Below are positions 9,620-14,673 of a stretch of 64,000 nt of DNA, piece after piece. The DNA comes from Arthrobacter globiformis (GTDB lineage: Bacteria; Actinomycetota; Actinomycetes; Actinomycetales; Micrococcaceae). The stretch lies in assembly GCF_030815865.1 (NCBI RefSeq), contig NZ_JAUSXI010000001.1, positions 558,001 through 622,000 on the forward strand, given 5' to 3'. Both the position numbers and the translations under genes were made by a program. How positions within the stretch are numbered: position 1 is the first letter of the stretch; every line of letters begins with the position of its first letter. The notes under the pieces were generated by a model that searched no databases, was not told the DNA's origin, and worked only from the letters and a program-made list of their open reading frames with translations.

Positions 9620-9973
9620 ATGATTCCCGGAGAGTATGTCCTGCGTCCTGAACCGCTGGTGATTAACGCGGGCCGCGAGGCTGTCGACGTCGTTGTCCTC
9701 AACACCGGTGACCGTCCCGTGCAGGTGGGCTCGCACTACCACTTCGCGGAGTCGAACCCGGCGCTGGAATTCAACCGCGACGCCGCCTATGGGCGGCGTC
9801 TGGACATTCCCGCCGGCACCGCAGCACGGTTCGAACCGGGCGACGGAAAGACTGTCCGGCTGATCAGGCTGGCCGGCAGCCGGGAGGTCTACGGCCTGAG
9901 TAACGCGGTGAATGGCAGCCTAGACGATGGCGCTGGCCAGGGCGGCACTGACCCGGACGGGGGAGACCGATGA
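9620..9973 (+). CDS. ureB: Urease subunit beta
   Basis: Structural beta subunit, 117 residues. The ATG start giving [13 protein letters not shown] matches the conserved family N-terminus; a longer in-frame extension back into ureA is not plausible. Conserved core [18 protein letters not shown] and the [15 protein letters not shown] segment are present. The C-terminal 15 residues are Gly/Asp rich. Its stop overlaps the start of ureC (ATGA). Confidence 0.97.
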
Positions 9974-11700
9974 GTTTCGAGTTGTCCCGCAGGCAGTACG
10001 CGGACCTTTACGGTCCGACGACGGGCGACGCCATTCGTCTCGCCGACACGGATCTGTTCCTCGAGATTGAAAGGGACCTCACGAACTACGGCGAGGAAGT
10101 GGTCTTCGGCGGCGGCAAGGTCATCCGGGATGGCATGGGCCAGAACGGCCAGGCCACACGTGATGAGGGCGTGCCGGACACCGTCATCACCAACGTGGTG
10201 GTGCTGGACTATACCGGCATCTACAAGGCGGACGTCGCACTGAAGGACGGCCACATCTTTCGGATCGGCAAGGCCGGAAACCCGCAGATTGCCGACGGCG
10301 TGGACATCGTCATCGGCGCCAGCACAGAGATCATCGCGGGGGAACGCAAGATCCTCACTGCCGGGGGAGTGGACACTCACATCCACTTCATCTCCGCAGA
10401 CCAGGTGGCCACGGCCCTCTGCAGCGGGGTGACCACCATGGTCGGCGGCGGCACCGGACCGGCCGAAGGCACCAAGGCCACCACCGTCACCCCGGGCAAA
10501 TGGCACATCCACCGCATGCTGCAGGCCGCCGAGGGTTTTCCCGTCAACATCGGCCTGTTCGGCAAGGGGCACGCTTCCGCCGTCGAGCCGTTGGCCGAGC
10601 AGATCCGTGCTGGAGCGGTGGGCCTGAAGGTCCACGAGGACTGGGGTTCCACCACCTCCTCGATCGACACCTCACTGAAGGTGGCGGACGAGTATGACGT
10701 CCAGGTGGCCATCCACACGGACACGCTGAACGAGTGCGGCTTCGTGGAGGACACCATCCGGGCTATCGACGGGCGTGTCATCCACACGTTCCACACCGAG
10801 GGCGCCGGGGGAGGGCACGCGCCGGACATCATCAAGATCGCCGGCCTGCCGAACGTGCTTCCCGCCTCCACGAACCCCACGCTGCCCTACACACGGAACA
10901 CCATCGAAGAGCACCTGGACATGCTCATGGTGTGCCACCACCTCAATCCGGACATCCCTGAGGACGTGGCTTTCGCCGATTCCCGCATCCGTGCCGAGAC
11001 CATCGCGGCGGAGGACGTCCTTCAGGACATGGGCATCTTCGCCATCACCTCCTCCGACTCGCAGGCCATGGGGCGCGTGGGCGAGGTGATCACCCGCACC
11101 TGGCAGGTGGCGGACAAGATGAAGAAGCAGCGCGGCGTCCTGACGGACCCTGCCGGTGAAACCCACGGTTCTTCTGACAGCGACAACTTTCGGCTGAAGC
11201 GGTACGTGGCGAAGTACACCATCAACCCGGCCGTTGCCCAGGGCATGGCTGATTCCATCGGCTCCGTGGAGGAGGGCAAGTTCGCCGACCTGGTGCTCTG
11301 GGACCCGGCCTTCTTCGGCGTGAAGCCCGAGCTGGTCCTCAAGGGAGGCCAGATTGCCTACGCCCTGATGGGCGACGCCAACGCCTCCATCCCCACGCCC
11401 CAGCCGCGCACCATGCGGCCCATGTTCGGCGCCCAAGGCAAGGCCCTGCAACAGTCGTCCATCACCTTCCTCTCCCAGGCGGCCATTGACGCCGGTGTGC
11501 CGGAGGAGCTGGGCCTGGAGAAGGTCATCCGGCCGGTCTCCGGCATCCGGACGCTGACCAAGGCGGACCTGAAGTACAACGACGCCACGCCGGACATCCA
11601 GGTGGACCCGGAAACTTACGCGGTGACTGTGGACGGCGAAGAAATCACCTGCGAACCGTCGGACGTACTGCCCATGGCGCAGCGGTACTTCCTCTTCTAG
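9970..11700 (+). CDS. ureC: Urease subunit alpha (catalytic)
   Basis: Catalytic nickel subunit, 576 residues, normal length. Metal and active-site residues are all visible: His137 and His139 (GGVDTHIHF), the carbamylated lysine Lys220 and His222 (GLKVHEDWG), His249 ([10 protein letters not shown]), His275 ([16 protein letters not shown]), flap Cys322/His323 (MVCHHLNPD) and Asp363 ([10 protein letters not shown]). Hydrolyses urea to ammonia and carbamate in the cytoplasm. Overlaps ureB by four bases and is followed by ureE after nine. Confidence 0.98.
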
Positions 11701-11709
11701 GAGTTTCAG

Positions 11710-12186
11710 ATGATTATCGAAAAAGTCCTCGGCAACCTTCAGGACCAGCCTGCCGAGTTTTACTCCGGCCTGCACCGCGAGAAGGTGGTGCTGCCCAGCG
11801 CCCAGCTCGTTAAGCGGATCCAGCGCGTCACCACCGACCACGGCAATGAGATTGGCATCAGGCTTCCTGCCGGATCGGCCGATCTCCGCGACGGCGACGT
11901 GCTGCACGTTGCCGACACCAACATGATCGTCGTTTCCGTGCTGCCCACCGATGTCCTGGTGATCGCACCACGGACCATCCACGAGATGGGGATTGTGGCG
12001 CACTCCCTCGGCAACCGGCACCTGCAGGCGCAGTTCTTCGACGCGTCGTCCGAGTACGGCGCCGAGGTCATGGTGTGCCAGTACGACCACACCGTCGAGG
12101 ACTACCTCAAGCACGTTGGAGTGCCCTACCACTGCCAGGAGCGCGTCATGCCAGTGCCTTTCCGCCATGCTGAACACGCGCACTGA
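11710..12186 (+). CDS. ureE: Urease accessory protein UreE
   Basis: Nickel metallochaperone that delivers Ni to the UreFGD-apo-urease complex. It has 158 residues with the two-domain UreE plan: the N-terminal peptide-binding part, then the metal-binding part with MGIVAHSLGNRHLQAQFFD. The C-terminus has only a few histidines (PFRHAEHAH), not a long His tail. It has a GGAG-type site before the ATG. The ureF start probably lies inside its last codons. Confidence 0.96.
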   Translation: MIIEKVLGNLQDQPAEFYSGLHREKVVLPSAQLVKRIQRVTTDHGNEIGIRLPAGSADLRDGDVLHVADTNMIVVSVLPTDVLVIAPRTIHEMGIVAHSLGNRHLQAQFFDASSEYGAEVMVCQYDHTVEDYLKHVGVPYHCQERVMPVPFRHAEHAH

Positions 12187-13135
12187 CGAGCCCGCTGGTC
12201 GAGCTGAACCCGCTGGTCGAGCTGAACCCGCTGGGCGAGCTGAATCCGCTGGTCGAGCTTGTCGAGACCAAGGTGCCGGGGTTTCGACAGGCTCAACCAC
12301 CGGGGAAGGATCCGCTGGTCGAGCTGAACCCGCTGGTCGAGCTGAACCCGCTGGTCGAGCTTGTCGAGACCAGGGTGCGGGGGTTTCGACCGGCTCAACC
12401 ACCGGGGAGGGATCCGCTGGTCGAGCTTGTCGAGACCAAGGTGCCGGGGTTTCGACCGGCTCAACCACCGGGGGATATCAGCTGGCGCTTCGGCAGCTTA
12501 CTGATTCGTCGCTTCCTACTGGGGCTTTTGCGCACTCGTTGGGGTTTGAGACGTATATCGAGCGGGGGGTCGTTCATGATGAGGAGTCCTTTGGGATTTG
12601 GCTGACTGCGTTTTTGGGGCAGCAGCTGACTTATTCAGATGCCTTGGCCATTCGGTTCGTCTACGAAGGGATTTCTGTCCTTGAGCTGGATGGGCTGCTT
12701 TCTGCGCAGCTTTTGCCGCGGCAGGTTCGGGAGGCCAGCGTCAAGATGGGGAACCGGATGCTGGAGATCGGCGCCGAAGTGTTTCCCTCGCCCGAATTGT
12801 CGGCGTACCGGGCGCTGGTGAGCGGGGGCCGGGCCGCCGGCCATCAGCCGCTGGCGTTCGCCGTCGTCGCCCGTTCGCTGGGGGTTCCGCAGGCGGAGGC
12901 GACCGCCGCCTACCTTTTCGCCGCCGTCACGTCCCTCACGCAGAACGCCGTCCGGGCCATCCCGCTCGGGCAGAGTGCCGGCCAGCGGGTGCTGCGGAAC
13001 GCGCACGACGCCGTTGCTGCCGCCGTCGAGCGGGCGGCCCGCCTGACGCCGGACGACTTCGGGGCCGTCAGCCCCGGACTGGAAATTTCGCAGATGAGGC
13101 ACGAGCGCCAACGTGCCCGCATGTTCATGAGCTAG
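12167..13135 (+). CDS. ureF: Urease accessory protein UreF with repeat-encoded N-terminal insert
   Basis: GTPase-activating partner of UreG in nickel insertion. The UreF core starts at YQLALRQLTDSSLPTGAFAHS (about residue 104) and runs about 219 residues, a normal UreF length, ending SQMRHERQRARMFMS. No ATG/GTG/TTG lies between the core and the upstream repeats in this frame; the only sensible start is the ATG inside the end of ureE (MLNTRTDEPAG...). About 94 codons of palindromic repeat DNA therefore sit in frame between that start and the core, encoding Gly/Ala/Arg-rich sequence. Either this insert is translated, or an unrecognised start is used. Confidence 0.85.
   Translation: MLNTRTDEPAGRAEPAGRAEPAGRAESAGRACRDQGAGVSTGSTTGEGSAGRAEPAGRAEPAGRACRDQGAGVSTGSTTGEGSAGRACRDQGAGVSTGSTTGGYQLALRQLTDSSLPTGAFAHSLGFETYIERGVVHDEESFGIWLTAFLGQQLTYSDALAIRFVYEGISVLELDGLLSAQLLPRQVREASVKMGNRMLEIGAEVFPSPELSAYRALVSGGRAAGHQPLAFAVVARSLGVPQAEATAAYLFAAVTSLTQNAVRAIPLGQSAGQRVLRNAHDAVAAAVERAARLTPDDFGAVSPGLEISQMRHERQRARMFMS
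12192..12473. repeat. Palindromic repeat array inside ureF 5' end (8 units of 18 or 66 bp)
   Basis: Eight head-to-tail units all beginning CCGCTGGTCGAGCT: three 18-bp units (12192-12245), one 66-bp unit (12246-12311), two 18-bp units (12312-12347), then a 66-bp and a 60-bp unit (12348-12473). Each long unit is an imperfect hairpin, one arm GGTCGAGCTTGTCGAGACC and the other GGTTTCGACAGGCTCAACC-like. All lengths are multiples of three and several reading frames on both strands lack stops. One more copy lies at the start of ureD. Confidence 0.92.
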
Positions 13136-13147
13136 CAGGAGGACAGC

Positions 13148-13765
13148 ATGACTGAACCAATCAAGATCGGCATCGGCGGCCCCGTCGGCGCCGGAAAGAC
13201 CCAGCTGGTGGAACGGATCACGCGCCACATGAGCGCAGAGATCTCCATGGCCGCCATCACCAACGACATCTACACGATCGAGGACGCCAAGATCCTGGCC
13301 GCCAACGGCATCCTGCCCGAGGACCGCATCATCGGCGTCGAAACCGGCGGCTGCCCGCACACCGCCATCCGCGAGGACACGTCCATGAACACCGCGGCCA
13401 TCGAGGAGCTCAAGCAGCGGCACCCTGACCTGCAGGTGATCTTCGTGGAATCCGGCGGCGACAACCTCTCTGCCACCTTCAGCCCCGAGTTGGTGGACTT
13501 CTCGATCTACATCATCGACGTTGCGCAGGGCGAGAAGATCCCCCGCAAGGCCGGCCAGGGCATGATCAAGTCCGACCTCTTCATCATCAACAAGACAGAC
13601 CTCGCCCCGCACGTCGGCGCAGACCTCGCCGTCATGGAACGCGACTCCAAGGAATTCCGCGGTGCCAAGCCGTTCTGCTTCACGAACCTCAAAACGGACG
13701 AAGGCCTGGAGCACGTCATCGAATGGATCCGGCGCGATGTCCTGATGCTCGACCTGGCGCAGTGA
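13148..13765 (+). CDS. ureG: Urease accessory GTPase UreG
   Basis: SIMIBI-class GTPase driving nickel transfer to urease; 205 residues. P-loop GGPVGAGKT at the N-terminus, the nickel-binding Cys-Pro-His motif ([17 protein letters not shown]), the [15 protein letters not shown] stretch and the guanine-specificity NKTD are all present. AGGAGGACAGC gives a strong ribosome-binding site before ATG. The stop overlaps a GTG that probably starts ureD. Confidence 0.98.
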
Positions 13766-14673
13766 GCACGCCGGACGGTCCGCTGGTCGAGCTTGTCGAG
13801 ACCGAGAGGCCGGGATTTCGACAAGCTCAATCACCGGCGCCGATGGGGGAGCTTGAGCTTCGCATCGCCGCGCGCGCAGGGAAGTCCTTTGCGTCGCACC
13901 AGTATCATCGGGGTGCCTTGCGGGTTTTGCGTCCGCACTATCTGGATGAGTCCGGCCAGGTTTGCTACGTCGTCGTCAATCCTGGCGGAGCGTATTTGGG
14001 AGCAGACCTTTACGTCCTGGACGTGGAGGTGGGGGACGGGGCTGACCTGCTGCTCACCACGCAGTCCGCGACGAAGATCTACCGGACTCCGGGATCGTTT
14101 GCCGAGCAGCGGATGACCGTCCGGCTGGGGGAGGGTTCGCGGCTGGAGCTGGCGCCGGACCAGGTCATCGCCTACCGGGAGGCCAGCTACCGGCAGAACA
14201 CGAACATCACGGTGCGGCCGACGTCGAGCCTGGTAATGGCTGAGGTGATCACGCCGGGGTGGTCGCCGGACGGTGCCTCCTTCCGGTACGAGGAGCTGCG
14301 GCTCCGCAACGAGATCCACGTGGAGACGGACGGCGGCACCCGGCTGCTCGCCCTCGACAATCTGCTGATCCGCCCGCCGCTCGACGACGTCACCGGCACG
14401 GGCTTCATGGAGGGCTACAGCCACCTGGGTTCGCTGGTGGTGGTGGACGCCCGGGTGGACCACGCGCTTGCCGACGAACTGCACCAACTGGCCGAAGAGT
14501 TCGACGCCTACACAGGGGTCTCGCTCAGTGCCACAATGGACGGCATCACGGCACTGGTGCTCCGGTCCCTGTCCAACAGCACCGAAAAACTCAATACGCT
14601 ACTGGGTGGCTGCAGTGGCCTTCTCCGTGAACGCTGGTACGGCCAGGCGCCCCTGAATCTGAGGAAGTACTGA
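13762..14673 (+). CDS. ureD: Urease accessory protein UreD
   Basis: Scaffold protein (UreD/UreH) that binds apo-urease and recruits UreF-UreG; here it comes last of the accessory genes. The conserved body runs from [20 protein letters not shown] onward, with [32 protein letters not shown] and the C-terminal [16 protein letters not shown]. The GTG start overlaps the ureG stop (GTGA) and gives 303 residues including a repeat-encoded stretch ([17 protein letters not shown]); the ATG at 13843 gives 276 residues, the usual length, but lacks a ribosome-binding site. Start therefore uncertain. Confidence 0.9.
13780..13837. repeat. Single copy of the ureF-type palindromic repeat at the ureD 5' end
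   Basis: One unit of the same family as the ureF array: CCGCTGGTCGAGCTTGTCGA... on the left and GATTTCGACAAGCTCAATCA... on the right, forming an imperfect hairpin. It lies six codons into ureD if the GTG overlapping the ureG stop is the start. The element is in frame with no stop codon. Confidence 0.88.

Follow-up and report, generated by a model that had tools for sequence, protein, structure and literature searches.

A palindromic repeat array lies in frame at the start of ureF in an Arthrobacter urease operon and is probably translated

Rickettsia is the best-known source of proteins invaded by repeats, and N-terminal examples can be challenged as wrongly called start codons. Passages of two papers (PMC3733652, PMC10969869) describe the RPEs of Rickettsia as short palindromic repeats that lie in frame in unrelated genes, which are probably still functional, and a passage of the former states that proteins with an N-terminal RPE-1 are expressed (PMC3733652). 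REP and BIME sequences are described in the same text as high-copy, hairpin-forming elements found between co-directional or convergent genes; some are intragenic, recB of two Xanthomonas species carries a REP at about the same site, and it is cautioned that N-terminal REPs may reflect misannotation (passages of PMC3733652). REP counts for one Arthrobacter are given in a passage of the RepRanger paper (PMC12306157). No report of the ureF array described here, or of palindromes in Arthrobacter genes, was found in open-licence papers, and a literature search with the literal repeat sequence gave a single match, an esterase paper.

The urease operon and its repeat array

The array lies in a 64,000-nt stretch of DNA (the window) from Arthrobacter globiformis. 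The genome is a single 5.11 Mb contig close to the A. globiformis group, and on a quick tree built from the urease genes the nearest named urease loci are those of Arthrobacter sp. ISL-65, A. ipis, A. sp. AFG20 and A. globiformis. Pfam identified consecutive ureC, ureE, ureF, ureG and ureD genes together with a NicO nickel transporter, and ureA and ureB were read by eye from the ORF list upstream of ureC (Table 1). The ureF start codon lies inside the last 20 nt of ureE, in another frame, and the ureF product matches Pfam UreF over residues 136-279 (E 3.8e-42). A second in-frame candidate start for ureD is the ATG at 13843. Antisense inside ureC (10125-10414, minus strand) there is an Rfam match to 5_ureB_sRNA (RF02514; 99.8 bits), common to all five other Arthrobacter-group urease loci scanned; its source may be mere conservation of the coding sequence.

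Table 1. Positions of the urease genes, repeat units and candidate starts in the window.
Feature	Position	Strand	Description
ureC, urease alpha subunit	9970..11700	+	Pfam Urease_alpha, Amidohydro_1
ureE	11710..12186	+	Pfam UreE_N, UreE_C; ORF list
ureF from the ancestral ATG	12167..13135	+	322 codons plus stop
Family A repeat array in ureF	12192..12473	+	Eight units, 282 bp, in frame
18-bp units of the ureF array	12192-12209, 12210-12227, 12228-12245, 12312-12329, 12330-12347		
Full palindromic units of the ureF array	12246-12311 (66 bp), 12348-12413 (66 bp), 12414-12473 (60 bp)		
Rival internal ureF start	12470..12484	+	SD-like GGGGGA, then CTG 12482; read from sequence
UreF core, conserved	12482..13132	+	Aligns over 217 residues in relatives
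ureG	13148..13765	+	Pfam cobW/HypB/UreG
ureD	13762..14673	+	GTG overlaps ureG stop (GTGA); Pfam UreD
Single family A unit in ureD	13776..13840	+	In frame, near the UreD N-terminus

The initial annotation had described eight repeat units of 18, 60 or 66 bp, 282 bp in all, with neither a stop codon nor a nearer start before the UreF core and with several frames open on both strands. Measurement gave the same units, five of 18 bp, two of 66 bp and one of 60 bp, arranged head to tail with start-to-start spacings that are all multiples of three. The frame check and the ORF list agreed with the remainder of the description: between ATG 12167 and the core the UreF frame contains no stop codon and no ATG, GTG or TTG, and further frames across the array are likewise open on both strands. 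The first half of the unit had five matches (three mismatches or fewer) in the whole window where 0.02 were expected, and the second half had eight where 0.00 were expected, one of them in ureD. The full unit is an imperfect palindrome that folds into a hairpin, at roughly -34 to -36 kcal/mol (z between -2.6 and -4.4).

In this repeat family, termed family A, stop codons are scarce whichever frame is read, and the openness of the single ureF array is therefore weak evidence when taken alone. Other arrays of the genome have spacings of 63, 45 and 39 bp, which can be divided by three, and of 65, 46, 91 and 28 bp, which cannot; the occurrence of multiples of three outside ureF counts against reading the ureF array as a translated tail.

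In A. sp. AFG20, ureF begins at the same ATG and is free of the array (MLNTRT-SYQLALRQL), as it is in A. globiformis NBRC 12137 (MLNTRTDEPSASGNSYQLALRQL); the UreF of the window reads MLNTRTDEP, then 94 residues, then YQLALRQL. As these empty sites in relatives have the same ATG, the array is an insertion. An alignment with close relatives had been suggested at the outset as a check on this point, and the contrary outcome named with it, the same array accompanied by a conserved downstream start, was absent among the loci examined. The codon at the position of the ATG is ATG in 79 of 81 loci and ACG in two. From these alignments, the ATG in ureE is the ancestral start of ureF and is followed by a linker of variable length. 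On the tree, the locus closest to the window (L070) belongs to the split class described below, an observation that counts against a translated tail.

Palindromes at the two urease junctions

The ureE|ureF junction was compared across 81 loci, namely the window and the best 80 of 187 relatives found, from the Arthrobacter group. UreF is open from the old start position into the core in 43 of these, with a short linker in 36 and an in-frame palindrome in seven. Two loci of the short-linker class, L121 and L124, have ACG at the old start position and begin at a different ATG, located 24 nt upstream of the core. The in-frame palindromes belong to two families, A in the window, L067, L105 and L119, and B in L071, L075 and L116. 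The genomes of the four family A loci, which were paired with the loci by identical junctions, are rich in family A, with 260, 158, 104 and 96 half-sites. An in-frame ATG, GTG or TTG is present inside the insert at five of the seven loci (all except the window and L071), so not every insert proves read-through from the old ATG.

In the other 38 loci, referred to as the split class, an ORF from the old ATG spans the gap. In 32 loci this leader ORF closes with a TGA overlapping a new start (ATG, GTG or TTG) that lies 12-18 nt upstream of the core; the leader ends at a TAG that shares a base with GTG in L098 and L131, and at a TAG adjoining ATG in L108. In all, the leader stop and the new UreF start overlap or adjoin in 35 of the 38 loci, the exceptions being L094, L097 and L140. 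The leader ORFs are small (12-95 codons). Across the gap, the frame of the old start contains a stop in none of the 38 loci, and the other two frames contain one in 28 and 20. At least 18 changes of UreF state are required on the tree, where each of the seven in-frame inserts stands apart from the others. In Pseudarthrobacter sp. Fe7 (L094), a family B hairpin precedes a UreF core that the frame of the old start does not reach, and none of the usual start codons lies near the core; its ureF is possibly broken.

The ureG|ureD junction could be compared at 80 loci, the L128 contig being without ureD. UreD was in frame and open in 75 (the exceptions are L074, L090, L095, L109 and L123), with ATG or GTG at the 4-nt overlap with the ureG stop in 74 of the 75. 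Where the gap was at least 60 nt long, stops were found in the used frame at 3 of 72 loci and in the other frames at 36 and 53. An ATG 9 nt before the UreD core is present at 46 of the 75 loci and in the window, and this counts against a translated tail. At 13 of the 75, no ATG, GTG or TTG occurs within 30 nt of the core, and an N-terminal stretch is therefore needed there. For the stretch that precedes the later ATG, the frame and stop counts speak for translation. The UreD N-termini of the group often include palindrome-coded residues, in several frames and in both orientations.

Frame is also preserved in the lengths of the gaps: in the UreF split class, 22 of 26 distinct lengths can be divided by three (p 1e-7), and for UreD the frame is kept by 39 of 44 distinct lengths (p 4e-14 against an expectation of 1/3), p values that treat lengths as independent and that are weakened by relatedness. 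The idea that the split-class gap is a plain untranslated spacer was dropped, as most of its lengths are multiples of three and the frame of the old ATG is free of stops. The overlapping pair in the split class has arisen inside one former gene. For ureF and ureD, these frame and stop counts bear on the warning about misannotated N-termini.

Similar in-frame tails were found in database UreF proteins. Eighteen were fetched from 120 listed of 1314 found, most of them picked for length, and nine of the 18 have tails of family A (the GGRACRD..ISTGSITG kind; P0014, P0018, P0019, P0022, P0024, P0048 and P0112) or family B (P0057 and P0063). The database UreF of A. sp. SW1 (P0086) begins at a start codon inside the insert, which counts against the tail reading.

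Family B is a low-copy family, with one to three close matches in 60 of 101 genomes and none in the rest; the window genome has no close match. Among 97 listed places, 54 form 27 pairs that are 1.4-1.5 kb apart, which is the distance between the two urease junctions. Fifteen further places comprise five urease loci, five sites between grpE and dnaJ, three near a dodecin-like gene, one elsewhere and one without a pattern match. The hairpins between grpE and dnaJ are in L181-L184 and L189 (at about 2230-2300) and those near the dodecin-like gene in L186-L188, the genes being named by eye in both cases. The outer arms of family B differ between loci yet covary: in 78 elements, an average of 11.3 of 16 positions can pair, compared with 8.3 for shuffled partners. 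Selection on the RNA would produce such covariation, and so would template correction within palindromes. At the Rfam gathering score, family B was unmatched in the seven loci scanned, five of which are urease loci.

Family A in the genome and inside other proteins

Family A is a dispersed, REP-like palindromic family. A 17-bp half-site pattern (one mismatch or none) was found 260 times in the window genome, and a reversed-pattern control twice. Across 101 genomes of the genus, 19 have at least 20 half-sites and 11 have none, the window genome having the most. When 149 genomes of the order were sampled, 16 had exact half-site matches, among them the window genome and its nearest relative. The genome of another family in the order (G215) has 156 exact half-sites, and family A is thus abundant in a separate lineage too. 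Clusters were examined for part of the sites (the pattern listing gave 100 of the 260 half-sites), with surrounding genes called roughly by codon score; on this basis 44 of 55 clusters are intergenic. None of 44 gaps with a family A element is divergent, compared with 16 of 71 gaps without one (p 0.0004). The Y1 transposase domain of RAYTs (PF01797) had no match in the window genome and matched 5 of 14 controls; as the search of the genome was empty, no mobilising enzyme for family A is proposed. In the one unit checked (12348-12413), neither GTAG/CTAC nor CGTC/GACG is present.

Eleven family A clusters in called genes resolve to ten ORFs, and Pfam domains were found in all nine ORFs scanned, the tenth (L156) having been left out. 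The inserts are internal in MazG, in a peptidase S58 and in the linkers of two E2 acyltransferases, all four with conserved domain on both sides. They are N-terminal in PaaB, an enoyl-CoA hydratase and a DUF4194 protein, and C-terminal in GcvP and a flavoprotein. MazG (L160:1707-2525) carries ten six-residue PLVERT repeats encoded by the 18-bp half unit, which are absent in most relatives compared. Relatives were compared at selected loci, five for MazG, four for S58 and four for one E2, the second E2 (L175) being left out. Four of the five MazG relatives have a shorter insert or none, and in the fifth another A-type insert takes its place. All four S58 relatives have a shorter insert, as does the nearest relative in the E2 linker, which varies in the other three. 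Because these inserts are internal to proteins, a misannotated start is no explanation for them. The comparison with RPEs made in the initial annotation was borne out for the mode of action, with family A in frame inside other known proteins.

Readings of the ureF array and relation to known systems

The array is quite probably a translated protein-invading element that makes a disordered UreF tail. Family A would have entered UreF at its N-terminal linker, which is short and variable, immediately after the ancestral ATG in the tail of ureE, and the array would then have grown by tandem steps in multiples of three. Translation would start at ATG 12167, presumably coupled to that of ureE because no clear ribosome site precedes this ATG, and read-through of the array would yield a disordered Gly/Ala/Arg-rich tail of ~100 residues ahead of an intact UreF core. 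A tail of this kind, an odd start and weak expression had been offered as alternatives when the array was first noticed, and the data favour the tail. Residues 1-100 of the modelled protein are predicted to be disordered (pLDDT 35-42, for a whole-protein mean of 70.7), and the core is mostly well folded. The UreF core is under purifying selection, with dN/dS of 0.14-0.21 to four neighbours. The sequence of the solved H. pylori UreF matches only from residue 33 of its chain onwards and so likewise has a leading stretch; among passages of the H. pylori UreF-complex paper (PMC3792862), none on the N-terminus was found. We infer that the tail is translated in this strain and tolerated by the urease activation complex.

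The principal alternative is that a non-standard codon within or beyond the array, such as CTG 12482, serves as the UreF start, and that the array is a spacer, either untranslated or translated on its own. An SD-like GGGGGA (12470-12475), supplied partly by the last unit, sits 6 nt before this CTG, and counts against the tail. So does the GC3 at the start of the window's UreF core (0.62 over 50 codons), a dip like that of relatives that start next to the core: over the first 50 UreF codons (L061-L140) the restarting species have a mean of 0.62 and the short class 0.80. However, the array-free neighbour A. sp. AFG20 also has a low core-start GC3, 0.64, and GC3 is an ambiguous guide to the start site. 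The 38 of 81 loci without read-through, nearly all with a new start next to the core, also suit a restart. However, these relatives restart at ATG, GTG or TTG, and the window has none of these in frame after 12167; the length and spacings of the array preserve the frame; and the old frame of the restarting loci ends at the new start, whereas that of the window enters the core. A non-standard start is consequently considered unlikely.

It is very improbable that ureF is decaying in this strain and that its frame is open by luck. The element is indeed poor in stops in most frames and would be in the right frame by chance one time in three, but the core is intact and constrained to the degree given above, ureC, ureE, ureF, ureG, ureD and NicO are all present, and the second insert, in ureD, is also in frame. 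Least credible of all is an assembly or sequencing artefact; repeats are error-prone in assembly, but the genome is a single contig, and other genomes and database proteins have in-frame tails of family A in the same place.

The junction hairpins of families A and B may be kept for altering the mRNA between structural and accessory genes. A stronger version, advanced tentatively and regarded as somewhat more doubtful than probable, is that selection favours strong mRNA hairpins at both urease junctions as a means of fixing the ratio of structural to accessory genes, whatever palindrome is available (dispersed family A or low-copy family B) being recruited and either fused to UreF or UreD or, with the old UreF start, made into a small gene whose stop overlaps the new UreF start. 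Since the genes overlap at these junctions, any hairpin there would have to be translated. If this were true, it would represent the repeated birth of a translated small ORF through the splitting of one gene by a palindrome. Dozens of related species form a natural experiment in which the frame survives many different inserts, and where the frame is lost a new start is found overlapping the stop of the old ORF. The junction pattern allows direct tests of whether palindromes are translated and how they affect the operon, and it hints at a simple way for one gene to become two.

Translationally coupled genes commonly overlap at ATGA or GTGA, where stop and start codons share bases. The split class resembles such pairs in that the stop of the leader ORF overlaps or abuts the new UreF start, and differs in that the upstream ORF consists of the old start codon plus, mostly, a palindrome. 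A translational fusion of UreE to UreF in Klebsiella reportedly leaves the N-terminally extended UreF functional; that fusion is a laboratory construct, whereas the ureF array is a natural repeat insertion.

Family A resembles REPs in being high-copy, mostly intergenic and not found before divergent genes, and differs from the GTAG and CGTC REPs in the tag-free unit at 12348-12413 and in the unmatched PF01797 search of the genome. It resembles RPEs in forming hairpins, as indicated by fold energies and z-scores, and in lying in frame in UreF, UreD, MazG, S58, two E2s, PaaB, enoyl-CoA hydratase and others. Unlike RPEs, it occurs in a different phylum, is high-GC, lies chiefly between genes, expands in tandem through 18-bp half units, and shares with an unrelated family the same urease junctions, struck in many species. 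The data support the view that family A works like the Rickettsia elements and intragenic REPs, the likeness being one of behaviour. What is new is the junction pattern, in which two palindrome families are kept readable as a tail or as a small ORF.
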